Source of the DNA: Corallococcus praedator | GTDB lineage: Bacteria > Myxococcota > Myxococcia > Myxococcales > Myxococcaceae | Assembly (NCBI RefSeq): GCF_003612125.1 | Contig: NZ_RAWI01000018.1 | Coordinates: forward strand, 1-53,849 | Length of the DNA: 53,849 nt | Direction: 5' to 3' | Shown: positions 28-39,610 of the stretch, one piece after another | How the letters are laid out: the number at the start of each line of letters is the position of its first letter | How positions within the stretch are numbered: the first letter of the stretch is position 1 | Notes under the pieces: generated by a model | Database searches by the model: none | Told to the model about the DNA's origin: nothing | What the model saw: the letters and a program-made list of their open reading frames with translations, nothing else | Translations under genes and position numbers: made by a program

Positions 28-4364
<4,337 letters not shown>

Positions 4365-4368
<4 letters not shown>

Positions 4369-5696: not shown

Positions 5697-5715
5697 GATA
5701 ATGAGAACCATTTTC
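5697..5715 (+). promoter_or_regulatory. Fur box over the mxcH start
   Basis: GATAATGAGAACCATTTTC matches the classical 19-base Fur consensus GATAATGATAATCATTATC at 16 of 19 positions. It stands out as AT-rich in very GC-rich DNA. It sits between the DAHP synthase stop and the receptor frame, and includes the proposed ATG of mxcH at 5701. This predicts Fe(II)-Fur repression of the receptor and downstream lipoprotein when iron is plentiful. Confidence 0.82.
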
Positions 5716-18841: not shown

Positions 18842-21457
18842 ATGAAGAACGTCGAGGACGTCTACCGGCTCACTCCCGCCCAGCGGGAGCTGTTGTTGCC
18901 ACCGTCGCCCGTGCCGGAAGCGCCCCTCGAACACCTCGTCGCGGACGTGCGGGGCCCCCTGGACGAAGCGTTGCTGGAGGAGGCCCTGCGGGAGCTGGTG
19001 CGCCGCCACACCGCGCTGCGCACCGCGTTCTTCCTCCAGGGCATGCCGGAGCCCATGCAGGTGGTCCGCGAGAAGCTCTCCCCTGCCCTGGAACGGGCGG
19101 ACGCGCCCCAGGGCCTGGAGTCCTGGCTGGAAGCGGATCGCAAGCGGGGCATGGGCCTGACGTCCGCGCCGCTGGTGCGCCTGTCGGTGGTGCGCACCGC
19201 CCCGGAGGCGTCCTTCCTCGTCTTCGCATGGCACGCGGCGGCGCTGGACGCGGGCGCCGCGAGGCTCTGCCTGGAGGAGCTGCTGCGCCTGTATCAGGCC
19301 GCGCGGGGAAAGGGCGACGCCGGGCTGGAGAAGGCGCGGCCGTTCCGTGAGTACCTCGCGTGGATGGAGGCCCAGGGCTCGGGCGACGCGGAGGCCCACC
19401 TGCGAGAGGCGCTGAAGGATCCGCGCCCCACCCTGCTGGCCGTGCGCTCCGAAGCCGGCCCCGTGACTGTCTCCGGCCTGCAACAACTGCTGCTGCCCGC
19501 GACGGAGTCCGGCAACGTGCTGGCCTTCCTGCGCAAGCACAAGCTGGGGCTGGGCACGTTGCTTCAGGCCGCGTGGGCGCTGATGCTGCGCCACCACACC
19601 GGCAACGCGGAGGTCGTGTTCGGCGCGCAGGTCCCCGGCCGCACCGCCACGCTCGTCCAGGGCCGACCGCTGGTGGGCCGCTTCGCGCACCTGCTGCCGC
19701 GCAGGCTCTCCATCCCCGCCCAGGGCACGCCCCTGCGCTGGCTGCGCGCCCTCCAGGCCGAGCTGTCCGAGGCCCAGCGCCATGAGCACGCCTCCCTGTC
19801 CCAGGTGCGCCAGTGGCTGAAGCTGCCGGACGACGTCCCCCTCTTCCAGAGCGCCGTCCTCGCGTGGGAGCCCCCGGAAGAGGACACGCTGAAGCCGCTG
19901 GCTCGCGGCCTGGGCCTGGGTTCCTTCCGCCACGTCTCCGCCCCGCCGTCCGTCCCGTTGACGGTGGAGGCCGTTGCCGGCGAGCGGCTGGCGCTGCGGC
20001 TGCACCATGACGCGAACCGCTTCGCGCCCCTGGACGTCATCCGCCTCGTGGGCCAGCTCGCGGCGCTGCTCGATGTGATCGCCACGCAACCGGACCGCGA
20101 GCTGTCCTCGCTAGGCGAGGTGCTGGACTCCGCCGGCGGCACCGCGCGGAGCCCCGCCACCGCGAGCACGTCCGTGGGACCGGAGGAGCTGCGCGCCCTG
20201 CTGGCGTGGCACCCGGAGGTGCGCGCGGTGGACGTGCGCGTGGAGGGCTCTCGGCTCGTCGCGCACGTGGTGCCCACCCGCCGCCGCGCGCGGAAGCTGG
20301 ACTTCGGCCTGTTCTTCTTCGCGGACGAGGACGCGGGCACCACCGACAAGTACCGCCTGCTGCTAGAGGCGGCGAAGTTCGGGGACGCGCACGGCTTCTC
20401 CTCCGTCTCCACCCCGGAGCGCCACTTCCACGAACACGGCGGCATCTACCCGAACCCGTCGCTGCTCGCCGCGGGCCTGGCCACGATGACGAAGCACATC
20501 GGCCTGCGCGCGGGCAGCGTCGTGCTGCCGCTGCAGAGCCCCTTCCGCGTCGCGGAGGAGTGGTCCATCGTCGACAACCTCTCCGGCGGCCGCGCTGGCA
20601 TCTCCATCGCTTCCGGCTGGGTGCCCAACGATTTCGCCCTCAACCCGGAGGCCTTCACCCGCAAGCGCGACGTCATGTGGGAGAACCTGGAGAAGGTTGA
20701 ACGGCTGTGGCGCGGCGAGTCCGTGCCGGCCCGTGACGGCGTGGGCAAGGAGGTGGACCTGAAGGTCTTCCCCCGCCCCATCCAGCCCCGCCTGCCCACG
20801 TGGGTGACGTGCGCCACGGACCCTGCCCTCTTCGAGCGCACCGGCACCGGCGGCTACAACGTCCTCACGTCCCTGCTGGGCCAGCCGCTGGAAGAGGCGC
20901 TGGAGAAGATCGGCCTCTACCACGCGGCGGCGGACAAGGCCGGCCACGCGCGCGACCAGCGCACCGCCACGCTGATGATGCACACCTTCGTCGGCCAGGA
21001 CGTGGACGACGTGCTGGACACGGTGCGCGCTCCGCTCACCGCGTACCTGCGCGCGCACGTAGCGCTGATGCAGACCATGGTGAAGAGCCTGGACCTCCAG
21101 GTGGACATCAACGAACCCAAGTGGGCGGACTACCTGGCCTCGTACGCCTTCGAGCGCTACTACCGCTCCGGCGCGCTCATCGGCACCGTGACGTCCTGCC
21201 TGCCCATGGTGGACAAGCTGCTCGCCGGAGACGTGGACGAGGTCGCGTGCCTCATCGACTTCGGCGTCGGCACCGACGCGGTCCTCCAGAGCCTCACGCA
21301 CCTGGCGGAACTCAAGCGGCTGGTGCAGGACGAGTCCCTGCGCATGGAACGCGTGCTCACCGAGTACCTCGCGGAACGGCTCCCGGGCGCACGCCCCGCC
21401 CTGTCGGTGAGACTGACCGACAGCCTGTCCGCCGAGCATCCCGGCCCCACCCTGTAG
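18842..21457 (+). CDS. Degenerate condensation domain fused to MupA/Atu3671-type luciferase-like monooxygenase
   Basis: This is an 871-residue two-domain protein. Residues about 1-440 form a condensation-superfamily domain whose first residues (MKNVEDVYRLTPAQ) match the start of the giant NRPS at 36461 (MKNVDDIYRLSPMQ). The catalytic HHxxxDG is replaced by WHAAALDAG: the first His is kept (131) and the essential second His is Ala. Residues about 485-850 are a bacterial-luciferase-like FMN-dependent monooxygenase (DFGLFFFADEDAG, FSSVSTPERHFHEHGG, GRAGISIASGWVPNDF). Members of this type hydroxylate carrier-bound intermediates in PKS/NRPS pathways. There is no A or carrier domain, so the protein probably acts in trans on the downstream assembly line. 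A GAGGAG ribosome site precedes the ATG at 18842. Substrate carbon and timing are unknown. Confidence 0.88.
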   Translation: MKNVEDVYRLTPAQRELLLPPSPVPEAPLEHLVADVRGPLDEALLEEALRELVRRHTALRTAFFLQGMPEPMQVVREKLSPALERADAPQGLESWLEADRKRGMGLTSAPLVRLSVVRTAPEASFLVFAWHAAALDAGAARLCLEELLRLYQAARGKGDAGLEKARPFREYLAWMEAQGSGDAEAHLREALKDPRPTLLAVRSEAGPVTVSGLQQLLLPATESGNVLAFLRKHKLGLGTLLQAAWALMLRHHTGNAEVVFGAQVPGRTATLVQGRPLVGRFAHLLPRRLSIPAQGTPLRWLRALQAELSEAQRHEHASLSQVRQWLKLPDDVPLFQSAVLAWEPPEEDTLKPLARGLGLGSFRHVSAPPSVPLTVEAVAGERLALRLHHDANRFAPLDVIRLVGQLAALLDVIATQPDRELSSLGEVLDSAGGTARSPATASTSVGPEELRALLAWHPEVRAVDVRVEGSRLVAHVVPTRRRARKLDFGLFFFADEDAGTTDKYRLLLEAAKFGDAHGFSSVSTPERHFHEHGGIYPNPSLLAAGLATMTKHIGLRAGSVVLPLQSPFRVAEEWSIVDNLSGGRAGISIASGWVPNDFALNPEAFTRKRDVMWENLEKVERLWRGESVPARDGVGKEVDLKVFPRPIQPRLPTWVTCATDPALFERTGTGGYNVLTSLLGQPLEEALEKIGLYHAAADKAGHARDQRTATLMMHTFVGQDVDDVLDTVRAPLTAYLRAHVALMQTMVKSLDLQVDINEPKWADYLASYAFERYYRSGALIGTVTSCLPMVDKLLAGDVDEVACLIDFGVGTDAVLQSLTHLAELKRLVQDESLRMERVLTEYLAERLPGARPALSVRLTDSLSAEHPGPTL

Positions 21458-21480: not shown

Positions 21481-21504
21481 GAGGCCCGATGTATCAAGGG
21501 CCTC
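21481..21504 (+). terminator. Hairpin after the monooxygenase gene
   Basis: GAGGCCC and GGGCCTC form a perfect seven-pair stem with a ten-base loop, 23 bases past the stop at 21457. It lacks a T tract. It may end or attenuate the monooxygenase transcript before the FAAL promoter region. Confidence 0.42.
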
Positions 21505-21600
21505 GACCAGGAACTGCCTGTCAACATGGACAGTTTGTAACGTGCTGTGTTAACTGTACTGTACGTTTTCCACGAATAATTCCGCTCACGCTGCATGAGT
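21505..21600 (+). promoter_or_regulatory. AT-rich promoter/operator region of the lipopeptide operon
   Basis: This short stretch is far richer in A/T than its surroundings. It contains the inverted repeat CTGTC-N6-GACAG (21518-21533), an overlapping imperfect repeat CAGTTtgtAAC...GTTAACTG (21531-21556) and an AATAAT (21575-21580) that could be a -10 element. It lies upstream of the first gene of the long co-directional NRPS/PKS series. I call it the likely operon promoter with regulator sites; the regulator is unknown. Confidence 0.5.
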
Positions 21601-21665
21601 CTCGTACTGCCCCTGCGGGTCGTTTCGGGGAGTCGGGTCTCGACACATCTCGGTCGGCCCAACGC

Positions 21666-24600
21666 ATGCGTTCGCCTGAATTGTTACAAGATGTGTCGAC
21701 GCTGGTGGAGCTGTCGCGTCGCAGGGCGGAGCAGCGCCCGGACCAGCTCGCCTACACGTTCCTCGTGGATGGTGACTCGGAGGAGGCGCACCTCACCTAC
21801 GGGGACCTGGATCGACGGGCGCGGGCCATCGGGGCGGCGCTGCAAGCGCGCGGGGCTCGGGGCGAGCGGGTGCTGCTGCTCTACCTTCCAGGTCTTGAGT
21901 ACGTGGCCGCCTTCGTGGGTTGTCTGTATGCCGGCGCGGTGGCGGTGCCGGCGTATCCGCCGGATCCGATGCGACTGGCGCGCACGCTGCCCCGGCTGGA
22001 GGCGGTGATCCAGGACGCGCGGGCGCGGTTCGCGCTCACCACGGGCTTCATCCAGGGCTTCATGGAGTCGATGGGCGAGCAGTCGGCGGCGCTCGCCGGC
22101 CTGTCGTGGCTGGCCACCGACGCGGTGGAGGACAGCGAGGCCGGTGCCTGGAAGGATCCGGGCACGGCGCGGGAGGCGCTGGCCTTCCTCCAGTACACCT
22201 CCGGCTCCACCGGCACGCCCAAGGGCGTGATGCTCAGCCACGGCAACCTGCTGGCGAACTCGCTGGCGATCCACCAGTGCTTCGAGCACTCGGACGACAG
22301 CCGCGGCGTCATCTGGCTGCCGCCGTACCATGACATGGGCCTCATTGGCGGCGTGCTGCAGCCGCTGTGCGGCGGCTTCCCCGTGGTGCTGTTGTCGCCG
22401 CTGGACTTCCTCAAGCGGCCGGCGCGCTGGCTGGAGGCCGTGTCGCGATACCGCGCGACGACGAGCGGCGGGCCCAACTTCGCCTTCGACCTGTGCGTGC
22501 GCAAGACGACGCCGGAGCAGCGCGCGGCGCTGGACCTGAGCTCCTGGGACGTGGCCTTCAACGGCGCGGAGCCGGTGCGCGCGGAGACGCTGGAGCGCTT
22601 CACGCGCGCCTTCGCGGACTCGGGGTTTCGCAAGGAGGCCTTCTACCCGTGCTACGGCCTCGCGGAGACCACGCTCATCGCCTCCGGTGGACGCAAGGCC
22701 GCGCCCCCGGTGGAGCGCGTATACCGGCAGGACGCGCTCCAGCAGGGCCGCGCGGAGGCACCCGCCCCTTCCGAGCTGACGGACGCGCGCACGCTGGTGG
22801 GCAGCGGCGTGAGCATCCCCGGGCAGGAGCTGATCATCGTGGAGCCCGAGTCCCGCCTGCCCGTGCCCGAGGGCCGGCTGGGGGAGATCTGGCTGCGCGG
22901 CCCGAGCGTCGCGGGCAGCTACTGGGAGCGCCCTGAGGAGAGCGAGGCCACCTTCCGGGCCCGCCGCGCCGACACCGGCGAAGGGCCCTACCTGCGCACC
23001 GGCGACCTGGGCTTCGTGTCCGGTCAGGAGCTGTTCGTCGCGGGCCGCATCAAGGATCTGATCATCCTGCGCGGCCGCAACCACTACCCGCAGGACCTGG
23101 AGCTGACGGCGGAGTCCAGCCACCCGGCGATGCGTCCGGGCTGCTCGGCCGCGTTCTCCGTGGACCGGGGCGGCGAGGAGCGGCTGGTGGTGGTGTTGGA
23201 GGTGGATCGCAAGGTGCTGGGCGAACCGTCCGCCGCCATCGACGCCATCCGGCGCGCCATCGCGCAGGGCCACGAAGTGGCCGTGGACACGGTGGTGCTC
23301 ATCCCCGCGGGCGGACTGCCCAAGACGTCCAGCGGCAAGGTGCAGCGGCGCGCGTGCCGCACGCAGTATCTGGCGAACGGGCTGGAGATCCTCGCGCAGG
23401 AAGCCCTCGCCGACGCTTCCGCCGACGCCGTGAGTGCTCCCGAGGTCGCTGCCCCGGAAGAGTTCCGGCTGACGCGCGCCGCGCTGCTGACCGCATCCGA
23501 GGCGGAGCGCGCGGCGCTGCTGGGCACGTACCTGCGGCGGCACCTGTCACGGGCGCTGTCCGTGCCGCTGTCGTCGCTGGAGGCGACCCGGCCCCTCACA
23601 GCGCTGGGCCTGGACTCCATCCACGCCGTCGAGCTGAAGGCGGCGCTGGAAGAGGAGCTGGAGATCCACCTGCCGGTGGCGCTGTTGCTGGAGGGCGTGC
23701 ACCTGGAAGCGCTCACCGCGCGGGGGCTCGCGGAGCTGCGCCATCCCACCGCCGCACCGCCGCCGTTGGTGGCGGGGGCTCGCGGCGATGCGCCGCTGTC
23801 GCACGGCCAGGAGCGGCTGCTGTTCCTGGATCAGCTCGCGGCGGGCAGCGCGGCCTACAACATCCCGGCCGCGGTGGAGCTGGAGGGACAGCTGGACGTG
23901 GCGGTGCTGACCCGCAGCCTGGAGGCCATCGTCCACCGGCATGAAGCGCTGCGCACGCGCTTCCCCCGCTCACAGGGCCGCCGCGTGCAGGACATCGTTG
24001 CGCCTTCGGGTGTTCCAGCGGGCGGACCGCTGGCGCTCCCGGGCGCGGTGGTGGACCTGAGCGGCTTGCCGGAGGCACAGCAGGCCGCCGAGACGGAGCG
24101 CCTCACCGCCCAGGAGGCGCGCGGGCCCTTCGACCTGGAGCGCGAGCTGCCGGTGCGCGCGAAGCTGTTGAAGCTCTCCGACACGCGGCACCGGCTGCTG
24201 CTCACGCTGCACCACGTGGTGTCGGACGGCTGGAGCATGGGCGTGGTGGTGCGGGAGCTGGGCGCGCTCTACGCGGCCTTCGCGCAGGGCCGACCGTCGC
24301 CGCTGCCGGAGCTTCCCGTGCAGTACGCCGACCATGCGGCGTGGCTGCGTCGCCGGCTGGAGGGTGGCCTGCTGGACGAGGAGCTTTCGTGGTGGAAGGA
24401 GCGCCTGTCGGGAGCGCCTCCGCTGCTGGAGCTGCCCCTGGACAAGTCGCGTCCGGAGCGCCAGCACTTCGAGGGCGCGCGGCAGCCGGTGTCGCTCTCC
24501 GTGGCGCTCAGCGAAGGGCTGCGGCAGTTGGGCCGGGCCGAGGGCACCACGCCCTTCATGTCGCTGCTGGCGGGCTTCCTGGTGGTGCTGCACTCGCGCA

Positions 24601-25229
24601 CCGGCCGCACGGACCTGGTGGTGGGCACGGACGTGGCCAGCCGCGAGCACGCACGCACCCAGAACCTCATTGGCCTGTTCGTCAACCAGCTGGTGCTGCG
24701 CGTGGGCCTGGAGGGCAACCCCACCTTCCGGCAGGTGCTCGGGCGCGTGCGCGAGGTGGCGTTGGGGGGACAGGCGCATCCGCATGTCCCGTTCGACAAG
24801 CTGGTGGAGGCGCTGCGCCCTCCGCGCGACGCCCGCTACAACCCCTTGTTCCAGGTGATGTTCGTCCTGGAGAACGCGCCCCTTCCCGCGCTGCGACTGC
24901 CGGGACTGAAGCTGCGCCAGCTGGAGATCGACGACGGCGGCTCGCCGTTCGACTTGTCCGTGCTGCTGTCCGAGTCCGAGGGCCGCTTCCAGGGCGTGCT
25001 GCGCTTCGCCACCGCCCTCTTCGACGCGGCCACGCTCGCGCGGCTGGCGGAGGACTACGAGGCGACGCTGGCCGCGGCGGTGGCCCGGCCGGACGCGACG
25101 TTGGAGGAGCTGCACGGGGTGCTCGTGGAGCGTGAGCGCCAGCGGCAGCAGGAGCGGGCACAGGCGCTCCAGTCCTCTCGCAAGGAACTGTTCCGCGGCG
25201 TGCGCCGTCGCGGTGGGAGCGAATCATGA
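21666..25229 (+). CDS. Lipopeptide starter: fatty acyl-AMP ligase - ACP - condensation
   Basis: This protein has 1187 residues. Residues 1-595 are a fatty acyl-AMP ligase (FAAL): TLVELSRRRAEQRPDQLAYTFL start, YTSGSTGTPKGVMLSH core and LPPYHDMGLIGGVL. An ACP follows (GLDSIHAVEL, phosphopantetheine Ser651), then a full condensation domain (about 715-1160, HHVVSDGWSMG, second His 850 intact). FAALs make fatty acyl-adenylates and pass them to the ACP without CoA. The C domain then acylates the first amino acid, here on the module encoded two genes downstream. I use the ATG at 21666 because it directly precedes conserved FAAL sequence. A longer frame from ATG 21489 would add 59 residues unlike the family and cross the AT-rich promoter patch. 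No strong ribosome site is visible. Confidence 0.9.
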   Translation: MRSPELLQDVSTLVELSRRRAEQRPDQLAYTFLVDGDSEEAHLTYGDLDRRARAIGAALQARGARGERVLLLYLPGLEYVAAFVGCLYAGAVAVPAYPPDPMRLARTLPRLEAVIQDARARFALTTGFIQGFMESMGEQSAALAGLSWLATDAVEDSEAGAWKDPGTAREALAFLQYTSGSTGTPKGVMLSHGNLLANSLAIHQCFEHSDDSRGVIWLPPYHDMGLIGGVLQPLCGGFPVVLLSPLDFLKRPARWLEAVSRYRATTSGGPNFAFDLCVRKTTPEQRAALDLSSWDVAFNGAEPVRAETLERFTRAFADSGFRKEAFYPCYGLAETTLIASGGRKAAPPVERVYRQDALQQGRAEAPAPSELTDARTLVGSGVSIPGQELIIVEPESRLPVPEGRLGEIWLRGPSVAGSYWERPEESEATFRARRADTGEGPYLRTGDLGFVSGQELFVAGRIKDLIILRGRNHYPQDLELTAESSHPAMRPGCSAAFSVDRGGEERLVVVLEVDRKVLGEPSAAIDAIRRAIAQGHEVAVDTVVLIPAGGLPKTSSGKVQRRACRTQYLANGLEILAQEALADASADAVSAPEVAAPEEFRLTRAALLTASEAERAALLGTYLRRHLSRALSVPLSSLEATRPLTALGLDSIHAVELKAALEEELEIHLPVALLLEGVHLEALTARGLAELRHPTAAPPPLVAGARGDAPLSHGQERLLFLDQLAAGSAAYNIPAAVELEGQLDVAVLTRSLEAIVHRHEALRTRFPRSQGRRVQDIVAPSGVPAGGPLALPGAVVDLSGLPEAQQAAETERLTAQEARGPFDLERELPVRAKLLKLSDTRHRLLLTLHHVVSDGWSMGVVVRELGALYAAFAQGRPSPLPELPVQYADHAAWLRRRLEGGLLDEELSWWKERLSGAPPLLELPLDKSRPERQHFEGARQPVSLSVALSEGLRQLGRAEGTTPFMSLLAGFLVVLHSRTGRTDLVVGTDVASREHARTQNLIGLFVNQLVLRVGLEGNPTFRQVLGRVREVALGGQAHPHVPFDKLVEALRPPRDARYNPLFQVMFVLENAPLPALRLPGLKLRQLEIDDGGSPFDLSVLLSESEGRFQGVLRFATALFDAATLARLAEDYEATLAAAVARPDATLEELHGVLVERERQRQQERAQALQSSRKELFRGVRRRGGSES

Positions 25230-26305
25230 CGACGGATGGTCAGCCGAAGCGCGCACTCCCGAAGCTGCGCAGGCGCGAAGTGGATGGCTCCGGCCAGGAC
25301 TGGGTGCGCTTCGAGGAGCTGCGGCCCGGGCTGCACCTGCCCGTGGTGGCCCGTCCGGCGCTGCCGGGCATCGAGCTGGCGGACTGGGGCCGCACGCACC
25401 GCGCCCTCGTGGACGCGCAGATCCACAAGCATGGCGCAGTGCTGTTCCGGGGCTTCGACGTGGTGACACCCGAGGCCATGGACCGGGCCATCCAGGCGAT
25501 GGCGGATGAAGCGCTGGCCTACGAGGAGCGCTCGTCGCCGCGCTCGCAGGTGAGCGGGAACATCTACACGTCCACGGACCACCCGCCGTCCGAGCGGATC
25601 TTCCTGCACAACGAGCAGTCCTACAACCAGACCTTCCCGGCGCGCCTCTTCTTCGCCTGCGTGTTGCCATCGCAACAGGGTGGCGAGACGCCGCTGGCGG
25701 ACACGCGACGCATCTTCCAGCGCCTGCCGGCCGAAGTGCGCGCGCGGTTCCTGGAGCAGGGCTACACGTACGTCCGCAACTTCGGCCACCGGCTGGGGTT
25801 GAGCTGGCAGCAGGCGTTCCAGACGGAGGACCGCGCCGAGGTGGAGGCATACTGTCAGCGCAGCGGCATCCAGGTGGAATGGCGCGACGGCAACCGCCTG
25901 CGCACGCGGCAGGTGCGTCGCGCGGCCGGTCTGCACCCCGTCACGGGCGAGCCCGTCTGGTTCAACCACGCCACGTTCTTCCACGTCTCCACGCTGCCGG
26001 CGCCGGTGGCCTCCGCGCTGCTGGCGGACCTGGGTGAGGAAGAGCTGCCCAACCACACGTATTACGGCGACGGCGCTCCCATCGAGCCCGAGGTGATGGA
26101 GACGCTGCGCGCCGCGTATGAGGCCGAACAGGTGATGTTCCCCTGGGAGAAGGGAGACCTGCTCGTCATCGACAACCTGCTGGCCGCCCACGCGCGTTCG
26201 TCCTTCGTGGGACCCCGGCGCGTGCTGGCCGGCATGGCCCGTCCGTTTCCGTGGAGCGAGGTCGCCCCGGTGGCGGACGCGCCCCGCGATTCCCCTCCAG
26301 GCTGA
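25226..26305 (+). CDS. SyrP/TauD-like Fe(II)/2-oxoglutarate-dependent hydroxylase
   Basis: This 359-residue protein belongs to the TauD/TfdA superfamily. The iron-binding triad is visible: His128 and Glu130 in LHNEQSY (the SyrP-type HxE variant), and His322 in NLLAAHARSSF. A following GPRRVLAGMARPF supplies the probable 2-oxoglutarate-binding Arg. SyrP-like enzymes hydroxylate the beta carbon of an amino acid on an NRPS carrier protein. The ATG overlaps the previous stop (ATGA), so translation is coupled to the loading gene. The next gene begins with a degenerate condensation domain, the arrangement expected for a hydroxylase recruited in trans. The likely substrate is the residue loaded by that A domain. 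Confidence 0.88.
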   Translation: MTTDGQPKRALPKLRRREVDGSGQDWVRFEELRPGLHLPVVARPALPGIELADWGRTHRALVDAQIHKHGAVLFRGFDVVTPEAMDRAIQAMADEALAYEERSSPRSQVSGNIYTSTDHPPSERIFLHNEQSYNQTFPARLFFACVLPSQQGGETPLADTRRIFQRLPAEVRARFLEQGYTYVRNFGHRLGLSWQQAFQTEDRAEVEAYCQRSGIQVEWRDGNRLRTRQVRRAAGLHPVTGEPVWFNHATFFHVSTLPAPVASALLADLGEEELPNHTYYGDGAPIEPEVMETLRAAYEAEQVMFPWEKGDLLVIDNLLAAHARSSFVGPRRVLAGMARPFPWSEVAPVADAPRDSPPG

Positions 26306-26361: not shown

Positions 26362-27690
26362 GTGACCCAGCCAACCGGATTCCGGCTCTCCCCCCAACAG
26401 GCAAGACTCTGGTCCCTCCTGGCGGCCGTTCCAGGAGCGCCATCGCGCGCCCGGGCCGTGCTCTCCCTCGACGGACCGCTCGACGTGGCGCGACTGGAGC
26501 GCGCGGTGCGTGAGCTGATCTCCGCGCACGAGGTGCTGCGCACCACGTACCGCCACCTCGCCGGCACGGCCGCCGCGGTGCAGGTGCCCGGGGAGGTTCC
26601 GGCGACAGTCCTGGAGGTGCTTGACTGGAGTGCCCTCTCCGAGACGGAGAAGTCCGCACGACTGGCGGCGCTGGGCTCCGAGTCCGGTTCGGCGGCGCTG
26701 GACGCTCTGACACCGTGGCGGCTCGCGGTGCTGGGCCCGGACCGCCATGCATTGCTCGTGGAGGTGCCCGCGCTCTCCGCGGACCGGCAGACGTTCGCCG
26801 TGCTCGCACGCGAGCTGGGTCGCGCGTTGACGACTTCGTCGCCCCAGGACGAAGAGCCGCCTCCGCAGTACGCGGACGTGGCGGAGGTCTTCCACCAGAT
26901 CCTCGAATCCGACGACGGCGCGGATGGACGGCGCTTCTGGAAGGGTCGTGACCTGACGGGCGCCACGGGCGCGACGCTGCCCACGCGCCGCAAGGACCCG
27001 GGGGCGCTCGGACTTCGCCCCCGTCGTGAAGCACTCGCACTGGCGCCCGAAACGGTCTCGGCCCTGGAGGCACTGGCCGGCCGGCTGGGTGTCCCGGTGG
27101 CGGACGTCGTGCTCGCGGGCTGGTCGCGCCTGCTGGCACGCATGGGAAGCAGCGGCGATGCGTGCGTCTCCGTGCGCGTTGAAGGCCGTGGCTACGAAGG
27201 ACTGGACGTGGCGCTCGGCCTCTTCGAGCGCTGGCTGCCCGTGCGCACCTCCGCTGCCTCCAGCTTCGATGCGCTCGCGCGCGACGTGGCGCGAAGCGTT
27301 CGCGAGACCGCCGCCTGGCAGGACGACTTCGACGCGTCGAGCGCCTTCCCCGCCGTCGGTGGCACCCCGCCCTCCCGCGCCTTCGCCTTCGAGGACCTCA
27401 CGTGGCCGGAGCCCGTGCGCGCGGGTGGACTGACGCTGACCCTCGCCCACGTTGAAGCGCGCGGCGAGCGCGCCGAGCTGACCCTGGCCCTGGTGCGCGG
27501 GCGCGGTTCCCTGTCGCTGGAGCTGCACCACGACGAAGCCGCGTACGCCCCGGAAGAAGCAGCCCGGCTCCTGGAGCGACTGGAGACCCTGCTGGCCTCG
27601 GCGCTGACCGCGCCCGAGCGCTCGCTGGACGCCCTTCCCTGGGTCGGTCCGCATGAACTGCGGCAGTTGGCGGACTTCAACCGCACCGCT
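26362..27690 (+). other. Degenerate C-like (interface-type) domain within the NRPS module
   Basis: The domain has condensation-family architecture but Pro and Ala where the two catalytic histidines should be. A non-catalytic C-family interface domain paired with a TauD-type beta-hydroxylase is described in siderophore NRPSs. The order here, C (end of previous NRPS), pseudo-C, A, PCP with an adjacent hydroxylase gene, fits that layout. Confidence 0.7.
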
Positions 27691-29595
27691 CGCGATCACG
27701 ACACGCAGGACACGCTGCCCTCGCGCTTCGACGCCGTGGCGCGCACTCGGCCGGACGCCGTGGCGGTCGCCTTCGAGGACGAACAGCTCACCTTCGCCGC
27801 GCTGTCAGAGCGCGCCAACCGGCTCGCGTCGCACCTGCGCTCCAAGGGCGTCGGGACCGAGACGCGCGTGGCGGTGTGCCTGGAACGATCGGTGGAGCAG
27901 CTCGTCGTGTTGCTCGGCGTCCTCAAGGCCGGCGGCACCTTCGTGCCGTTGGATCCGACCTACCCGCGCGAGCGACTGGCCTACGTCATCCAGCAGGCCG
28001 GCGCGCCGCTTGTCGTCACCCGCTCGAACCTGCGCGCTTCGCTCCCTGACGGCGCGCACACCTTCGTCTGCCTGGACCAGGAGACCGACGCCCTGGCCGC
28101 CGCGTCCTCCCACGTGCCCGACGTGACGCTCTCCCCGGAGAACGCCGCCTACGTCATCTTCACGTCCGGCTCCACGGGCCGCCCCAAGGGCGTGATGATC
28201 CCGCACCGCTCGGCGCTCAACCTCGCCGCCACGCTGCGCGACGTCGTCTACCAGGGCCGGGGCCCCGGCCTGCGGGTGAGCGTCAACGCGCCGCTCGTGT
28301 TCGACGCCTCCGTGAAGCAGTGGCTCCAGCTCCTCAACGGGCACTCGCTGCACATCGTCCCGGAAGAGGTGCGGCCGGACGCGGTGCGCATGCGCGCGTG
28401 GGTCCAGCGGTACGCCGTGGACGTCGTGGACTGCACGCCGTCGCTGTTGGGACCGCTGCTGGTCCAGGGACTCGGCCGTGACGCGGATTTCTCCCCGGCC
28501 ATCGTGCTGGTGGGCGGAGAAGCCATCGACGCGCGCACCTGGACGGACCTCACGCCGCTTACGCGCACGCGCTTCGTCAACATGTACGGCCCCACCGAGT
28601 GCACCGTGAACGCCACGGCGTGCCCCATCGCGGACTCCGCGCAGCCGAGCATCGGCGGACCGCTGGGCAACGTGAGGGTGCACGTGCTGGACGCGGGCCT
28701 GCGGGAGCTGCCCCTGGGCGTGCCCGGTGAGCTGTTCATCGGCGGCGCGGGCGTGGCCCGAGGCTATGAAGGCCGGCCGGACCTCACCGCCGAGCGCTTC
28801 GTGCCGGATGCCTTCAGCCCCACGCCGGGCGCGCGGCTGTACCGCACGGGAGACGTGGGCCGCTACCGCGAGGACGGCCGCATCGACTTCCACGGCCGCG
28901 CCGACTTCCAGGTGAAGGTGCGGGGCTACCGCATCGAGCCCGGTGAAATCGAAGCGCAGATGCGCTCGCACCCGGAGGTGGGCGAAGCCGTCGTCGTCGT
29001 GCGTGGCACGAAGGAGGATGCCCGGCTGGTGGCGTACTTCGTGCCCCGTCGCGGAATGCCCGCGGACACCGATCCGGCGACGGCGCAGCTGGCCCTGGAG
29101 CTGCGCGGCTTCCTGCGCGAGCTGGTGCCCGAGTTCATGCTGCCCTCCCACTTCGTGCCGCTGGCGCGACTGCCGCTCAACCGCAACGGCAAGGTGGACC
29201 GGGGCGCGCTGCCGGAGCCGGTCGCCGCGAGGCCGGAGACGGTGCCCTACGAGGCGCCCGTCACGGAGCTGGAGCAGCGCATCGCCGCCATCTGGCAGGA
29301 GGCCCTCAAGGTGGACCGGGTGGGCCTGCACAGCAGCTTCTTCGATCTGGGTGGGCACTCGCTCCTCATGGTGCAGGTGCACGAGAAGCTGTCGGTGCTG
29401 ATGGGCCGGCGCCTGTCCATGGTGGAGCTGTTCCAGCACCCCACCGTGGCCTCGCTGGCGAAGTACCTGGGACAGGCCCCGGCGAGCGCGGCCCAGGAGT
29501 CCCTGCAACAACAGGCGCGTGACGAGCGCGCGAAAAAACAACTCCAAGCGATGCAGCAACAGGCCCTCTTGATGAAGGCCAGGGGTAAGCGATGA
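26362..29595 (+). CDS. NRPS module: pseudo-condensation (interface-like) - A - PCP
   Basis: This protein has 1077 residues. Residues 1-445 have the length and edge motifs of a condensation domain (FRLSPQQARLWSLL). The HHxxxDG site reads VPALSADR, so both active-site histidines are missing. The A domain (about 460-970) has FTSGSTGRPKG, YGPTECTVN and YRTGD motifs, and a pocket read by eye as D-A-K-D-L-G-M-V-N-K, closest to Glu/Gln codes. The PCP has LGGHS with Ser1000. A Gln/Lys-rich tail (QQQARDERAKKQL) may be a docking helix. GTG start at 26362 has AGGAG eight bases upstream. Bond formation for this residue probably depends on the C domain of the FAAL protein; the pseudo-C likely recruits the adjacent hydroxylase. 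Confidence 0.9.
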   Translation: MTQPTGFRLSPQQARLWSLLAAVPGAPSRARAVLSLDGPLDVARLERAVRELISAHEVLRTTYRHLAGTAAAVQVPGEVPATVLEVLDWSALSETEKSARLAALGSESGSAALDALTPWRLAVLGPDRHALLVEVPALSADRQTFAVLARELGRALTTSSPQDEEPPPQYADVAEVFHQILESDDGADGRRFWKGRDLTGATGATLPTRRKDPGALGLRPRREALALAPETVSALEALAGRLGVPVADVVLAGWSRLLARMGSSGDACVSVRVEGRGYEGLDVALGLFERWLPVRTSAASSFDALARDVARSVRETAAWQDDFDASSAFPAVGGTPPSRAFAFEDLTWPEPVRAGGLTLTLAHVEARGERAELTLALVRGRGSLSLELHHDEAAYAPEEAARLLERLETLLASALTAPERSLDALPWVGPHELRQLADFNRTARDHDTQDTLPSRFDAVARTRPDAVAVAFEDEQLTFAALSERANRLASHLRSKGVGTETRVAVCLERSVEQLVVLLGVLKAGGTFVPLDPTYPRERLAYVIQQAGAPLVVTRSNLRASLPDGAHTFVCLDQETDALAAASSHVPDVTLSPENAAYVIFTSGSTGRPKGVMIPHRSALNLAATLRDVVYQGRGPGLRVSVNAPLVFDASVKQWLQLLNGHSLHIVPEEVRPDAVRMRAWVQRYAVDVVDCTPSLLGPLLVQGLGRDADFSPAIVLVGGEAIDARTWTDLTPLTRTRFVNMYGPTECTVNATACPIADSAQPSIGGPLGNVRVHVLDAGLRELPLGVPGELFIGGAGVARGYEGRPDLTAERFVPDAFSPTPGARLYRTGDVGRYREDGRIDFHGRADFQVKVRGYRIEPGEIEAQMRSHPEVGEAVVVVRGTKEDARLVAYFVPRRGMPADTDPATAQLALELRGFLRELVPEFMLPSHFVPLARLPLNRNGKVDRGALPEPVAARPETVPYEAPVTELEQRIAAIWQEALKVDRVGLHSSFFDLGGHSLLMVQVHEKLSVLMGRRLSMVELFQHPTVASLAKYLGQAPASAAQESLQQQARDERAKKQLQAMQQQALLMKARGKR

Positions 29596-32500
29596 GCAGC
29601 GAAGTCGAGCAGGACGCTCCTCAGATGGAAGGCGTGGCGATCGTGGGCATGGCGTGCCGGTTCCCCGGCGCCAGCACCCCCGAGGCTTTCTGGAAGAACC
29701 TCCAGGAAGGCGTGGAGTCCATCACCTTCCTCAAGGACGAGGAGTTGGATCGCGCCGCCATCGACCCCGCGGAGCTGAAGGATCCGAAGTACGTCAAGGC
29801 GCGGGCCACGCTGGACGGCATCGACCAGTTCGACGCGCGCTTCTTCGAACTGTCGCCGCGCGAGGCGGAGATCACCGATCCGCAGCAGCGCCTCTTCATG
29901 GAGTGCGTCTGGGAGGCCCTGGAGACCGCAGGCCACGACCCGTCGCGAGCCAAGGGGCCCATCGGCATCTACGCGGGCGCGGGCGCCAACGGCTACCTGC
30001 TCTACAACCTGTCGTCGGCCGGGCACCTGACGGGCACGGTGAGCGCGTTCCAGGCCGTCATCCACAACAAGAACGACCACCTGGCCACGCGCGTCGCCTA
30101 CAAGCTGGACCTCAAGGGCCCGGCGGTGACGGTGCAGACCGCGTGCTCCACGTCGCTCGTGGCCGTCTACCACGCGTGCCAGAGCCTGCTGAACTTCCAG
30201 TGCGACATGGCGCTGGCGGGCGGCGTCACCATCACCGTCCCGCAGAAGACGGGCTACCTCTACACCGAGCGTGGCATCGGATCCCCGGACGGCCACTGCC
30301 GCCCGTTCGACGCGAACGCACAGGGCACGGTGGGTGGCAGCGGCGCGGGCGCGGTGGTGCTCAAGCGCCTGTCTGACGCCATCGCGGACGGCGACATCAT
30401 CCACGCGGTCATCCGCGGCGGCGCGCTCAACAACGACGGAACCGACAAGGTCGGCTACACGGCGCCCAGCGTGAACGGCCAGGCCGAGGTCATCGGCATG
30501 GCGCACGCGCTGTCCGGCGTGGATCCCGACACCATCACCTACGTCGAAGCCCACGGCACGGGCACGCCCATGGGCGACCCGATTGAAGTGAAGGCGCTGA
30601 CGAAGGCGTTCCGCTCCGGCGGCGCCACGCGCAACGGCTACTGCGGCCTGGGCTCCGTGAAGAGCAACGTGGGCCACCTGGACACGGCGGCCGGCATCGC
30701 GGGCCTCATCAAGACGGCGCTGACGCTGAAGCACCGTCAGCTTCCGCCCAGCCTCGGCTTCGAGAAGCCCAACCCGGAGATCGACTTCGCGGGCAGCCCC
30801 TTCTACGTCAACGCGAAGCTCCAGGACTGGAACGCGCCCTCTCCGCGTCGCGCGGGCGTGAGCGCGTTCGGCCTGGGCGGCACCAACGCGCACGTCGTCC
30901 TGGAGGAGGCGCCCCAGCGCGCGCCGTCCGGGCCCTCGCGTGAGCACCAGTTGCTGGTGGTGTCGGCCCGCTCGGACGCGGCGCTGGAGACGGCGACGAC
31001 GCGGCTGGCGGAGCACCTGAAGGCGCATCCGGACCTGAACCTCGCGGACGTGGCTTTCACGCTCCAGAAGGGGCGCAAGGCCTTCGAGCACCGCCGCTTC
31101 GTGGTGGTCCGCACCGTGGAGGAGGCCGCGCAGGCGCTGGCGACGCTGTCCCCGGACCGCGTCATCACCCGCACCCAGGAGCGCGTCACCCGGCCCGTGA
31201 TGTTCATGTTCCCCGGCCAGGGATCGCAGCACCCGGGCATGGCCGCGTCCCTGTACCGGGGCGAGTCCGTGTTCCGCCAGGAGGCGGACCGCTGCCTGGA
31301 GCTGCTGTCCAAGCGCCACGGGCTGGAGCTGAAGGCGCTGCTGTTCGAAACCGACACGCAGGATGCGCAGGCCGCCTCGAAGCTGGAGCAGACGGCCCTC
31401 ACCCAGCCCGCCCTCTTCGTCGTGGAGTACGCGCTGGCGAAGCTGCTGCTGTCGTGGGGCCTGGAGCCCGCGGCGATGATCGGCCACAGCGTGGGCGAGT
31501 ACGTCGCGGCCTGCCTGGCCGGCGTCTTCACGCTGGAGGACGCGCTGGAGCTGGTCGCCACCCGGGGCCGGCTGATGCAGTCCTGCCCTCCGGGCGCCAT
31601 GCTGTCCGTACAGCTCGCGGAGGCGGACGTTCGCCCGTACTTGAGCGAGGGGCTGGAAGTCGCCGCCGCCAACGCGCCGGGCTCGTGCGTCGTCGCGGGC
31701 CCTCCGGCGGCCATCGAGGCGCTGGAGAAGCGGCTCGCGGCCAAGGACGTGCTGGCCCGTCGACTGCGCACGTCGCACGCGTTCCACTCCGCGATGATGG
31801 ACCCCATCGTCGGGGCCTTCCGTGACGCGGTGGCGAAGGCGAAGCCCTCCGCGCCGAAGCTGCGCTTCATCTCCAACGTGACGGGGACGTGGATCACCGC
31901 CGAACAGGCCACGTCGCCCGACTACTGGGCGAAGCACCTGCGCCAGCCGGTGCGCTTCGCGGACGGCCTGGATGAACTGCTGAAGGAGTCCGAGGCGGTG
32001 TTGCTGGAGGTGGGCCCGGGCAAGGCGCTCCAGTCGCTGGCGCGCTGGCACCCGCGCAAGAAGCCGACCCAGTCCATGCACACCCTGCTGCCGACGGTGG
32101 GCGAGGCCACGCCGGAAGCGGAGTACCTGCTGCGCACGCTGGGCCACCTGTGGCTGCTGGGCGTGGATGCGCCGGGCTACTTCGACGGTGAAACGCGCCG
32201 TCGCGAGCCGCTGCCCACCTACCCCTTCGAGCGCCAGCGCTACTGGGTGGACCTGCGCTCCTCCACCAGCGCCCAGGCGAAGCGCGGAGGTTCGCTGGAG
32301 AAGCGCCAGGACGTGGCGGGCTGGTTCTGGCTGCCGGTGTGGAAGGAGTCCGCGCCGAAGGTGGCCGCCGTCGGAGCCGCCAACGCGAAGGCGGCGCCGT
32401 GGCTGCTCCTGCAGGACAAGGCGGGCCTGGGCGCGAAGCTGGCCACGCGCCTGCGTCAGCAGGGCCACGCGCTGGTGGAAGTCATTCAGGGCCGTGAGTT

Positions 32501-35500
32501 CCGCCGCACGGGCGCGGACGCGTACGAGCTGAACCCCGGCCGCCGCGAGGACTACGCCTCGCTGCTGTCGGAGCTGGCGGCGGATGGACGGCTGCCGGAG
32601 CGCATCGTCCACCTCACCGGCATCACCGCCGAGGGCTCGGGCGCGGCGACGGAGGACGTCGTCGAGCGGTCGTTCTTCAGCCCGCTGCACCTCGCGCAGG
32701 CGCTGGGCGCGCACACGACGGGCAAGCCGGTGCGCCTGACGCTGGTGTCCAACGGCATGCAGGAGGTCACGGGCGGGGACCTCGTGTCGCCGGAGCAGGC
32801 GGTGGCGCTGGGGCCCACCAACGTCATCCCGCGCGAGCTGCCGCACGTGCACTGCCGCAGCGTGGACGTCACCCTGCCCCCGCTGAGCAGCTTCCAGGCC
32901 GGACGGCTGGTGGAGCTGCTGGCCGCGGAGCTCGCGTCGGACTCGGAGGAGCCCGTGGTGGCCTTCCGGAGTGGCCGCCGCTGGGTGCGCGACTTCGAGG
33001 AGGTGCGCCTGGAGGAAGGCCCCGAATCGGCGGTGCCGCTGCGCGAAGGCGGCGTGTACCTCATCACCGGCGGCCTGGGCGGCATCGGCCTGTCCTTCGC
33101 GGAAGCGCTGGCGGAGAAGTGCCACGCGCGGCTGGTGCTCGTCGGGCGCGCGGTGGTGCCTCCTCGCGAGGAGTGGGCGAAACACCTGGAGGCGTCCGGT
33201 GGTGACGAGGCCACGCGCCGTCGCATCCAGGCCGTGCAGCGCCTGGAGGAGAAGGGCGCGAAGGTGCTGGCGCTCAGCGCCGACGTGACGGACCTGGAGC
33301 GCATGCGGGCCGTGGTGGCCACCGCGCGGGAGCGCTTCGGCGCCATCCATGGTGTCATCCACGCGGCCGGTGTGCCGGGCGGCGGGCTGCTCCAGCTCAA
33401 GACGCGCGAGGCGGCGACGGCGGTGCTCGCGCCCAAGGTGACGGGCACGCGCGTGCTCGGGGCAGTGCTTGAGGGCGAGCGGCTGGACTTCTTCGCGGCC
33501 TGCTCGTCGCTCACCACCGTCGTGGGCCGCTTCGGCCAGGTGGACTACACGGCGGCCAACGCGTACCTGGACGCCTTCACCCGCGCGTACCAGGCCCGCA
33601 CCGGCACCTACGCGGTGTCCATTAACTGGGGCGCGTGGGACGAGGTCGGCATGGCGGCGCGGCCGGCGACGCAGACCGGCGAGGGCCGTGCGATTCCGCA
33701 CCCGTTCGTGCACCGCTGCCTCGTGGACACGCCGCAGCGCAAGGTCTTCTCCGGCACCTTCGGCGAGCCGCGCTCGCAGTGGGTGACGGACGAGCACCGC
33801 ATCCTCGGCAACCCAACGGTGCCGGGCGTGACGTACTTCGAGATGGTGCGCGCCGCGGTGGCGGACGAGGCGAAGGGCCGCACCATCGAGCTGTTGGACA
33901 ACTACTTCCTCGCGCCGCTGCGCGTGCCGGAGAACGAGACGCGCGAGGTGCGCCTCACCCTGGAGAAGGACGGGGACGGCTACCGCTGGGGCGTGAAGAG
34001 CCTGCCGCCGGGCGGCGTGGGCAAGGGCACGGACCACTCGGCGGGCCGGGTGCGCTTCGGCGGGCCCCGCGTGGCGCGCGTGGAGGACCTGGAGGCCATC
34101 CGCAAGCGGTGCGACAAGCCGCGTCCGCAGTCGCTGGAAGCCGAGTACGAGCAGGAGCTGGGGCCGCGCTGGCGCAGCGTGCAGGCCATCCTCCCGGGTG
34201 ACAACGAGCTGTTGATGGTGCTGGAGCTGATGCCGGAGTTCACCGGCGACTTCGAGCAGCTGCTCTTCCACCCGTCGCTCATCGACCGCACGTCGGGTAT
34301 CGCCAAGAGCTTCCTCGCGGAGCACGGCTACTACCTGCCCTTCGGCTACAAGGTGCTGCGCCTGCACGGCGAGCTGCCGCGCCGCGTGTACAGCCACGCG
34401 CGCTTCCGGGCCAACGAGTCGTCCAACGGCGATGAGACGCTCGCCTTCGACCTCACGATGATGGACGAGCAGGGCCGCGTCCTGGTGGAGGTGGAGCGGC
34501 TGACGCAGAAGCGCGTCAACGACCCCGCCGCCGAGCTGCGCGCCCTGGCCGCCGCCGCCCGCGAGTCCGCGCTGGCGAAGGTGCTTCCCACCGAGGAGCG
34601 CCAGGAGATCTCCCCGCGCGAGGGCGTGGTGGCGCTGGAGCGCATCCTGGCCTCCGCGCTGGCGTCCCAGGTGGTGGTGTCCGTGCGCGACCTGCACGCG
34701 ACCATCGCCCACACGGACGAGGTCGTCCGCGAACGGGTGCTCCAGGCCGTGGGGGAGACGCGTGCCCCCGGCGAGCAGCAGGCCCGTCCCAAGCTGAAGA
34801 CGGAGTACGTGGCGCCGCGCAACGACATCGAGCAGCGCATCGCCGAAGCCTGGCAGGCGGTGCTCGGCATCGACCGCGTGGGCGTGAACGACAACTTCTT
34901 CGAGCTGGGCGGCGACTCCGTGCAGGCCATCCAGATCATCGCGCGCGGCAGCCAGTCCGGGTTGCAGTTGAGCCCGCAGCAGTTCTTCCAGTACTCCACC
35001 ATCGCGGAGCTGGCGGCGATGATCGCCGGCATCGTTGCGAAGCAGGCCGAACAGGGACCGGTGGTGGGCCCTGCCCCGCTCACCCCCGAACAGCGTCGCC
35101 TGTTGGAAGCGCCCACCGGCGCCTCCACGCGGGTGGCAAGGGTCGCGGTGCGTGGGCCGGTGGACGCGCCCGCGCTGTCCCAGGCCCTGGGCACGGTGCT
35201 GTCGCACCACGACGCCCTGCGCCTGCGCTTCACGCGAGGCGTGTCCGGTTGGCAGCAGGCGGGCACGGCTCCCGGCACGGAAGTGTCCTTCGCGGAGGTG
35301 GACCTGCGCGCACTGCCCGCCGCCGAGCACGAAGCGGCGCTGCACGGCGAGGAGGAGAAGCTCCGCGCGAAGCTGGACGTCGGCGCGGGTCCGCTCGCGG
35401 CGGCCGCGTGGGTGCGGCTGGAGGGCGGCGTGGGCAGCCAGTTGCTGATCGCGGCGCATGGGCTCGCGGTGGACGGGGCCTCCTGGAGACTCCTCGTGGA

Positions 35501-36452
35501 GGACCTGTCCGCGGCCGTGCGCCAGACGCGCGGTGGACCGGCCCTGCGCGCGAAGACGGCGTCCTTCAAGCGCTGGGCGGAGCGGCTGACGGAAGAAGCC
35601 GCCTCCGAGTCCCTGCGCAAGGAGGAGTCGGTGTGGACGGGCGCCGCCCAGGAGGGCGCCACGAAGCTGCCGGTGGAGCGCGCGGGGAGCCCGTCGGGGG
35701 CGGCGCGCGTCGTGGAGGTGTCGCTGTCGGAGGATGAGACGCGGCGGCTGCACGAGAAGCTTTCCGGCACGTGGCGCGCGGACGTGGCCGAGGGCGCGCT
35801 GGCGGCGCTGGGTCAGGCCCTGGCGACCTGGACCGGCGGCGGACGGCTGCGCGTGGATGTCGTGACGGACGGACGCGACGCGTTCGACGGTCAGGACTTC
35901 TCGCGCACGGTGGGCTGCTTCGACGTCACCTGGCCGCTGCTGCTGGAGCTGGATCGTGACCAGGGGGCAGGCGACGCGCTCAAGGCCGCGAAGGAGCGCA
36001 TGCGCCGCGTGCCGCGCCGGGGCATCGGCTTCGGGCTGCTGCGCGACGGCTCTCACGGCGAGCTGTCCGAACGCCTGCGCCACCTGCCCAGGGCGGAGGT
36101 GCTCGTGCGACACCTGGGGTCGGTGGACGCTACGGAGGACGCGGCGCCCTTCGGTGCGGGTACGTCGCCCGGTGCCCACCGCGCGACGGGTGGGTACGCG
36201 CTGGAGGTGGAGACGTTCCTGTCCGGCGGGCGCCTGCACGTGCGCTGCGCCTACGACGACGGGACGTACACGCAGGGAACGGCGTCGAAGCTCGCGGGCG
36301 ATGTCCTCGCGGCGTTGCGCACGCTGGGCAGCGAGGCGCAGGACACGAAGGCGGCGCTGTCATCCGTGGATTTCCCCCTCGCGGGACTGGATGACTCGCA
36401 GCTGGGGGCACTCGCGGCGCTCATCAACGATGCGGACGGGTCGGAGAGCTAG
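29592..36452 (+). CDS. PKS module KS-AT-KR-DH-ACP with C-terminal epimerization-like domain
   Basis: This is a 2286-residue type I PKS overlapping the previous gene by ATGA. Domains: KS (13-430, Cys185, His321, His362); AT (about 535-850, GHSVGEY Ser633, HAFHS implying malonyl-CoA); KR with structural half (about 900-1330, GGLGGIG, Tyr1319); DH after the KR (about 1370-1640, [11 protein letters not shown] His1402, HPSLIDRT Asp1565); carrier (GGDS, Ser1776, the variant usual before epimerization domains). The last ~460 residues resemble an NRPS epimerization domain ([28 protein letters not shown]). The EGHGRE box that holds the catalytic Glu is changed to TDGRDAF, and HH is AH. The module should add malonate, reduce the ketone and perhaps dehydrate. 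Confidence 0.9.
35070..36440 (+). other. Epimerization-like pseudo-domain on the PKS
   Basis: Residues about 1825-2280 of the PKS. Ser-Trp after the DG motif and SRTVG are hallmarks of epimerization rather than condensation domains. His1956 (second of the motif) remains, but the general-base Glu is not conserved. Its position behind a PKS carrier, not an aminoacyl carrier, is odd. Confidence 0.72.
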
Positions 36453-39400: not shown

Positions 39401-39610
39401 ACCGAGCGCCGGCTCGCGGCCCTCTGGACCGAGGTGCTCAACGCCGGCACCGTGAACGCGGAGGACGACTTCTTCGCGTTGGGTGGCCACTCGCTGCGCG
39501 TCACCCAGCTCGTCTCCCGCGTGCGCGCGGTCTTCGACGTGGAGCTGCCCCTGCGGGCCGTCTTCGAGGCCCCGACCCTCGCCGCCCTGGCCGCGCGCCT
39601 GGACGCCGCC
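36461..39610 (+). other. Giant NRPS module 1 (C-A-PCP), Val-like pocket
   Basis: C domain 36461-37790 has intact HHLVMDG. The A domain (about 37850-39350) pocket reads D-A-L-W-L-G-A-T-F-K, seven of ten positions like the Val code DAFWIGGTFK. The PCP has LGGHS at Ser1011. Confidence 0.75.

Follow-up and report, generated by a model that had tools for sequence, protein, structure and literature searches.

The 53,849-nucleotide stretch analysed here (the window) is one entire contig, NZ_RAWI01000018.1, of the 10.5 Mb genome of Corallococcus praedator (assembly GCF_003612125.1), and within a cluster of nonribosomal peptide synthetase (NRPS) and polyketide synthase (PKS) genes it encodes a stand-alone protein in which a condensation-like half, C*, is fused to a monooxygenase half, MOX. 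We refer to this protein as C*-MOX, to the first condensation (C) domain of the giant NRPS of the cluster as gC1, and to the dead epimerization (E) domain of the PKS as E*. On the strength of sequence comparison, and with a probability of roughly 0.57, we propose that C*-MOX works in trans as an alpha-hydroxylase on the chain bound to the PKS, and that a copied COM acceptor on C* recruits it there. The first-pass annotation of the gene, made from the DNA letters, had taken C* for a probable carrier-docking adaptor; this description can be narrowed to a likely partner, namely the carrier, E* and COM-donor tail of the PKS.

We infer the binding, the substrate, the reaction and the order of events in this scheme as follows. 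KS extension would leave a beta-keto chain on the PKS carrier beside E*, the COM acceptor of C* would dock on the COM-donor tail after E* and so bring MOX to the PKS-held chain, and MOX would oxidise the alpha-carbon, as shown for MupA and proposed for PuwE; KR and DH may act after this alpha-hydroxylation. Since C* cannot condense, C*-MOX would leave the donor, and gC1 would then dock on the same donor, condense and take the oxidised chain. More tentatively, and at somewhat less than even odds, one could suggest that C*-MOX and the downstream NRPS, which bear paralogous acceptors for one E* donor, bind the PKS exit in turn, such that the exchange of a dead acceptor for a live one sets the timing and oxidation precedes transfer. 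For the compact clusters mapped, the domain map shows no E domain with a COM-donor-type tail other than that of the PKS, and it faces two acceptors.

The open frame of C*-MOX begins with an ATG at 18842 and closes with a stop codon ending at 21457, and Pfam recognises a Condensation domain at residues 5-425 (143.8 bits) and a Bac_luciferase domain at residues 488-737 (131.8 bits). The MupA/Atu3671-type identity that had been annotated for the second half is borne out by TIGR04020, which residues 488-825 match over the whole profile (1-341 of 341) with 447.6 bits against a cut-off of 244.45. When aligned to gC1, the H-H-x-x-x-D-G positions of C* read H131-A132-AAL-D136-A137, so that the catalytic second histidine is indeed lost, as annotated, and the aspartate retained. 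The annotation had also listed no adenylation (A) or carrier domain. This stands for the A core and the carrier, as AMP-binding and PP-binding have no match in C*-MOX (Pfam, E ≤ 0.001) and are also absent from the families listed for 21 members of the C*-MOX family, but not for the C-terminal A subdomain, of which a remnant lies at residues 446-478. With this remnant alone, C*-MOX is neither an NRPS module, with A core and carrier, nor a module in which MOX sits within an A domain that has both. An AlphaFold model (mean pLDDT 72.9, pTM 0.56) was used solely for fold search.

The solved chains that match the C* profile best are the C domains of McyB, PvdL, BacC, SrfA-C and TycB, which are of the class that follows E domains. 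These matches, the tree and the conserved windows described below place C* in this class, the DCL or COM-acceptor type. In a tree that sampled the cluster, its own genome and other bacteria, C* and gC1 (14 rows each) are both of single origin (100/100 and 99/96) and jointly form one clade (96/94) inside the class of C domains that follow E domains, with broadly mirrored sub-branching and one weak C* node (90/73). Eleven of 61 rows had been dropped before this careful tree was made (own_C1491, own_C559, own_C743, oth_L062, LCL_FAAL and six near-copies), and a quick tree of all 61 rows returns the same clade (98); 18 of the 21 aligned C* were used in the quick tree, 14 in the careful one and 17 in the window comparison below. 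A tree of the C half against the C domains of the cluster was a check that the annotation had put forward, and its outcome, that C* is the sister of gC1, indicates that a single old duplication is the source of both. All 16 gC1 rows read HHxxxDG, but as the rows were chosen on that motif we discarded the count as circular; among 31 unfiltered MKN-type N-termini, those without HH are C* proteins only.

The suggestion that a functional C domain had been copied is thus upheld as to common ancestry with gC1, but falls short as to the extent of the copy. Between C* and MOX, Pfam AMP-binding_C is found in 10 of 21 members at E ≤ 1 (best 2.1e-4; the window's own protein is not among them), and a profile made from 136 adenylation C-terminal subdomains has a match in 20 of 21 (E < 1e-3, for the set of 21). 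Given this remnant, the copy seems to have extended beyond the C domain, and the A core and carrier to have been lost. Downstream of MOX the sequence looks like a continuation of the A subdomain; taken alone it reaches E < 1e-3 in none of 21 (best 0.031), and it adds bits to the remnant only in order (median 25.0 versus 20.6 when shuffled). We considered whether C*-MOX is a C-A-MOX-T module minus its A core and carrier, and rejected this: the six A-embedded MOX domains read in the same genome lie between motifs A4 and A5, not in the A subdomain, which makes such a module an improbable source of the MOX of C*-MOX.

The surface by which C* would dock is the part that most resembles gC1. In BacC, according to published work (PMC12402864), the donor tail comprises a seam, a lid and a helix, gripped by a hand from the first strand and hairpin strands of the next C domain. 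The 15-residue windows in which C* and gC1 are most alike are 1-15 (0.69) and 59-73 (0.68), against a mean of 0.33, and correspond to these two elements, the hairpin position (gC1 59-74) being derived from alignment end points and accurate to within about three residues. C* is 0.62-0.63 identical to gC1 in the COM windows and 0.31 in the remainder, where gC1 itself is 0.41 identical to other groups. As a control, both windows proved equally conserved in other C domains of the class (0.59-0.69 between groups), with values of 0.51-0.57 for C* against outside groups; since conservation is class-wide, we dropped the windows as proof of docking and use them as support only. In the same light, the near-identical N-termini of C*-MOX and the giant NRPS, MKNVEDVYRL at 18842 and MKNVDDIYRL at 36461, are as the annotation had reported them, but what it took for a mark of copying is also part of the docking surface found throughout this C-domain class.

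The matching donor would be provided by the PKS. The best PDB matches of its C-terminal C-superfamily domain (PvdL, 184.4 bits; BacC, 156.6 bits; TycA; GrsA) identify this as an E domain. One His and one Glu are key E-domain residues according to the BacC work (PMC12402864), and E* has lost both the second His and the Glu in 15 of 15 myxobacterial loci read, as well as in Parvularcula, with G, E, A, D or P at the second position. The tail, DFP(L/H)xxLDxxQ, is kept in all 15, which do not include the PKS of G020, truncated in the sequence used. It would seem that an E domain at a polyketide carrier has been retained here as a scaffold. In the domain order of the PKS, KR precedes DH, in the window and the mapped loci alike.

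PKS orthologues (at least 62% over KR to the start of E*) were found at 22 loci, all in the 17 of 96 Myxococcaceae genomes that carry C*-MOX, with equal copy numbers (1 or 2) in each of the 17; six further PKS hits, at 42-45%, come from two genomes without C*-MOX (G007, G080) and from four with it. We mapped 16 of the 22 C*-MOX loci, and in all 16 the PKS with E*, the gC1-type NRPS and C*-MOX are found on one strand in the same neighbourhood. The position of the gene within it varies: C*-MOX stands before the FAAL gene in four loci (the window, G009, G015, G079a), between PKS and NRPS in one (G056) and after the NRPS in 11. Two of the mapped loci (G069, G071) have two consecutive NRPS before C*-MOX, each ending in a thioesterase-like stretch and with a gC1-like first C domain (58-60%), which could possibly represent two exits for one PKS.

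The placement in Corallococcus, where C*-MOX lies directly upstream of its neighbour FAAL-T-C (4 of the 16 mapped loci, window included), brings up the alternative that it oxidises a fatty acyl chain on the FAAL-loaded carrier. We regard this as very improbable. The FAAL-T-C, TauD and first C-A-T genes accompany C*-MOX in 10 of 16 mapped loci and are not in the fetched flanks of the other six, which extend at least 22 kb upstream of the PKS in G018b, G017, G079b and G067b and are short in G006b and G020b. A search for TauD orthologues in seven genomes gave one each at 72% or more, though five of these carry two C*-MOX loci, and in G017 the TauD gene, together with FAAL and the first C-A-T, lies at 1.99 Mb and C*-MOX at 10.26 Mb of a 12.49-Mb contig. 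The last domain of the FAAL protein, moreover, is a C domain with HHVVSDG and not an E domain. As these three genes are separable from C*-MOX, the unit that stays together is the PKS with E*, the gC1-type NRPS and C*-MOX. The G017 arrangement is itself of note, in that FAAL-T-C, TauD and C-A-T on contig 1 are 8.3 Mb apart from PKS-E*, C-A-T-TE and C*-MOX, and the pathway may be split over two places. The late position of C*-MOX in the compact loci, as the last core gene after an NRPS that ends in a thioesterase (TE; Pfam-confirmed for G063), might also be read as a role in cleaving or releasing the chain, as an amide or truncated product, in the way of the myxothiazol MOX; with a TE already present, and with the C*-MOX gene first or in the middle in 5 of the 16 loci, we consider this the least likely of the explanations.

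That MOX would act on a polyketide-bound chain is suggested by its relatives. In a tree of 25 MOX rows, 11 C*-MOX (of 21), two PKS-embedded MOX, PuwE and a Parvularcula MOX fall apart from 10 A-embedded MOX (91/94), which points moderately to an affinity with polyketide-acting relatives; two of the nine own-genome MOX were left out. These nine other matches (E ≤ 1e-90) lie in frames of 1181 to 10247 residues, and of seven that were read, six are inside A domains, by motif between A4 and A5, and the seventh is in a PKS. In Parvularcula, the stand-alone MOX has as neighbours a C-A-T protein with HHLILDG and a PKS whose E domain is dead and followed by a tail (Pfam-confirmed domains), so that the locus offers similar functions in the absence of a C* fusion; the first domain map had suggested a C-A-MOX-T ancestor there, which we abandoned when reading gave a C-A-T protein and a separate MOX. 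The MOX-bearing A domains of L004, L007, L008 and the G009 and G015 stretches have motifs that by eye are degraded (SGSTGxPKG, FDxS, NxYGPTE), and such modules may serve for oxidation only, with no loading of their own.

C*-MOX could also dock as proposed but act on the gC1-A-T module, whose carrier would then present the substrate, an amino acid or a peptide. When selectivity motifs are simply read off, the A domain that follows gC1 (the first readable one) varies among 13 clusters (DAL..(A/G)TF, DAW..LID, DVW..LVD, DTF..GTF), and the first module's motif is nearly constant, D(A/T)K..(M/V/L)V(N/D), in 10 clusters; we take the amino-acid meanings of these selectivity motifs to be Val-like, Gln, Ser and Glu-like. 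As the A domain after gC1 varies, a MOX acting on that varying residue is less likely than one acting on the constant PKS unit, and the grouping of MOX with PKS-type relatives, apart from the A-embedded ones, speaks against this alternative as well. The attraction of this alternative is that the gC1-type NRPS, like the PKS, accompanies C*-MOX in all 16 mapped loci, that the MOX domains of this genome are commonly A-embedded (the six of seven above), and that A-embedded MOX, by a published account (PMC11342130), hydroxylates the alpha-carbon of glycine in myxothiazol and melithiazol. On balance we judge it unlikely, although it is the strongest competitor to a PKS-bound substrate.

The dead state of C* is a stable feature of the family. 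C*-MOX was found in 17 of 96 Myxococcaceae genomes (E ≤ 1e-120), at 22 loci, so that the two-domain architecture that the annotation had asked after does recur elsewhere; at E ≤ 1e-150, 17 of 195 Myxococcota genomes have a match. The searches scored the best 9 candidates per genome for C*-MOX and the best 11 for the PKS. In the count of 22, two contig-end fragments of G006 are taken as one gene, which was left out of the alignment of 21; three of the 21 were reported with one internal TGA, and on reading each frame was open until a stop near the C-terminus. An assembly error is excluded as the cause of the fusion by four orthologues of full length, at 90-91%, and by another at 88% that is divided between two contig ends; farther orthologues have 50-75% overall identity. 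A second scan, with one genome per species and dependent on one of two exact peptide patterns (distant cousins could thus be missed), gave 60 loci, with Corallococcus species as the closest named relatives. Eleven of these (L031-L041), all Myxococcaceae (Corallococcus, Myxococcus, Pyxidicoccus, Archangium), have C* followed directly by MOX without an A domain between in the domain map, a layout seen in none of the other 49, in most of which an A domain follows the C domain. We looked for homologues with an intact HHxxxDG, which the annotation had named as the observation that would contradict it, and found none among the 21 aligned; by this motif, C* is not a catalytic condensation domain. The second His is replaced by P in 12, A in 7, S in 1 and G in 1, the Gly is lost throughout (A 10, E 6, D 3, R 2), the Asp is kept in 21 of 21 and the first His in 19.

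In 10 chosen pairs, dN/dS was 0.19-0.44 for C*, 0.03-0.21 for MOX and 0.04-0.77 for the short remnant and linker (domain boundaries taken from one sequence), and both halves look to be under purifying selection in these pairs, which makes C* a stable dead domain and not a decaying gene. One could also speculate that C* is a relic without a docking role, and that MOX finds its carrier alone, as MupA does. C* does evolve faster than MOX in the 10 pairs, its body has drifted from gC1 outside the COM windows (0.31), MupA has no such domain in the account consulted (PMC10953402), and the Parvularcula MOX has none. Set against this are the full-length C* in all 21 aligned proteins, the purifying selection in the pairs tested and the twofold higher identity to gC1 in the COM windows (0.62-0.63), and we consider a relic improbable.

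Several observations nevertheless weigh against recruitment of C*-MOX by the PKS. PKS, gC1 and C*-MOX are neighbours, so that co-inheritance could explain their co-occurrence. The COM windows are conserved throughout the class (gC1 against own-genome domains, 0.63 and 0.59), and their retention may therefore reflect fold as much as docking; the values for C* against own-genome domains of the class, 0.51 and 0.55, are below those of gC1. The third-ranked window, 235-249 (0.65), is no COM element (the fourth is 108-122, at 0.54), and positions 13-16 read AQRE in C* and MQQG in gC1. In the MOX tree the 91/94 node is not starred, and the Parvularcula row is flagged as unsure for its long branch; that MOX lacks C*, which therefore is not needed by every such MOX. 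Finally, the relative placement of the domains in the fold model is unreliable at a pTM of 0.56.

Table 1 Features of the cluster (window positions; strand + throughout)
Feature	Position	Strand	Description	Basis
C*-MOX gene	18842..21457	+	871 aa: pseudo-condensation domain, A-subdomain remnant, flavin monooxygenase	
C* domain	18842..20116	+	aa 1-425; DCL/COM-acceptor type (C domains following E domains), sister of gC1	
First COM-acceptor element	18842..18886	+	aa 1-15, MKNVEDVYRLTPAQR	15-aa window most like gC1; COM anatomy from PMC12402864
Second COM-acceptor element	19016..19063	+	aa 59-74, hairpin, LRTAFFLQGMPEPMQV	window 59-73 second most like gC1; BacC mapping inferred from alignment end points
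Dead active-site motif	19232..19252	+	aa 131-137, HAAALDA replacing HHxxxDG	alignment
Adenylation remnant	20177..20275	+	aa 446-478, C-terminal subdomain	Pfam and subdomain-profile comparison
MOX	20303..21316	+	aa 488-825, MupA/Atu3671-type FMN luciferase-like monooxygenase	TIGR04020
FAAL-T-C loading protein	21489..25229	+	same cluster, not always linked to C*-MOX	domain search
TauD-type dioxygenase	25226..26305	+	same cluster, not always linked	domain search
C-A-T protein	26362..29595	+	C domain without HHxxxDG (PALSADR)	domain search, motif reading
PKS	29592..36452	+	KS-AT-KR-DH-T-E*, probable partner	domain search
Dead E motif	35457..35477	+	HGLAVDG (second His lost; Glu of LEGHGRE also lost)	alignment
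COM-donor-type tail of PKS	36360..36449	+	C-terminal	sequence reading across loci
Giant NRPS	36461..53849	+	runs off contig; gC1 at 36461-37750, active-type C* paralogue (HHLVMDG)	

Upstream of these features (Table 1), an NRPS with C-A-T-reductase order (28-4368) and a TonB-type receptor (5701-8280) form an apparently separate siderophore locus, which we would liken to that of myxochelin.

Among known systems, the X domain of glycopeptide NRPSs recruits P450 enzymes; like C* it resembles C domains without being catalytic, and it guides an oxygenase to a carrier, as C* would do. The X domain, however, is part of the NRPS and its oxygenase external, whereas C* is fused to the oxygenase, and among the matches of C* the X domain ranks below the COM-type C domains (profile score of 77.9 bits versus 264.7 for McyB, and rank 38 on in the fold search). 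An interface domain is a dead C-like domain within an NRPS, paired with the TauD-type beta-hydroxylase that it recruits. By this description C*, fused to MOX and sister of gC1, is set apart, and the first C-A-T protein fits better. The C domain of the latter lacks HH in 10 of 10 clusters read, follows the intact HHVVSDG domain that ends the FAAL protein and adjoins the TauD gene; it may be an interface-type domain recruiting the dioxygenase. Together with C* and E*, three C-superfamily domains of the cluster are thus dead. The COM pairs described (TycA/TycB, BacC E-COM-C, SrfA-C) have the same acceptor surface on the C domain after E and the same donor tail after E, but there the chain is handed to an active C domain, whereas here one donor would have a second, dead acceptor, and the E domain is dead and on a PKS.

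The closest parallels in chemistry are MupA and OocM of the mupirocin and oocydin pathways (KS0 bimodules), which by name belong to the same monooxygenase family (TIGR04020) and likewise act in trans, at PKS junctions that contain a non-elongating domain (PMC10953402); MupA hydroxylates only a beta-keto thioester bound to its ACP, and no docking motif was recognised at the junction in the account consulted. C*-MOX differs in that its MOX carries a dead C domain of its own and in that a dead E domain and its COM-type tail make up the junction. The nearest solved MOX is the OX domain of PuwE from the puwainaphycin synthetase (PDB 6KET; phmmer, 367.9 bits; Foldseek, 49%), which acts in cis between the PKS and NRPS modules of one protein, without C* or trans docking; for the PuwE monooxygenase, a part in forming the 3-amino-2-hydroxy acyl unit of the PKS chain has been proposed (PMC4219810). 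The A-embedded MOX of the myxothiazol type is of the same family, and like it C*-MOX has an A-subdomain piece beside MOX, but in C*-MOX there is no A core or carrier and MOX is placed after the remnant.

In the open-access literature listings, the literature covered, we found no description or known product of C*-MOX, and what appears to be new is that a trans oxygenase of the MupA type bears a COM-acceptor C domain which was copied and is dead. The scaffold-like dead E domain at the PKS exit fits the scaffolding role proposed for COM domains in the BacC study (PMC12402864). The mupirocin work, in the sections consulted (PMC10953402), leaves open how stand-alone MupA-type oxygenases find the right carrier and reports no recognisable docking interface; the C*-MOX family would offer a compact answer, with a built-in, recognisable docking domain, an active paralogue as a control and a likely single donor. 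If the proposal is true, it may allow an alpha-hydroxylase to be added at other E-COM junctions, and in these myxobacteria a tailoring enzyme would have taken over the synthetase's own docking address.

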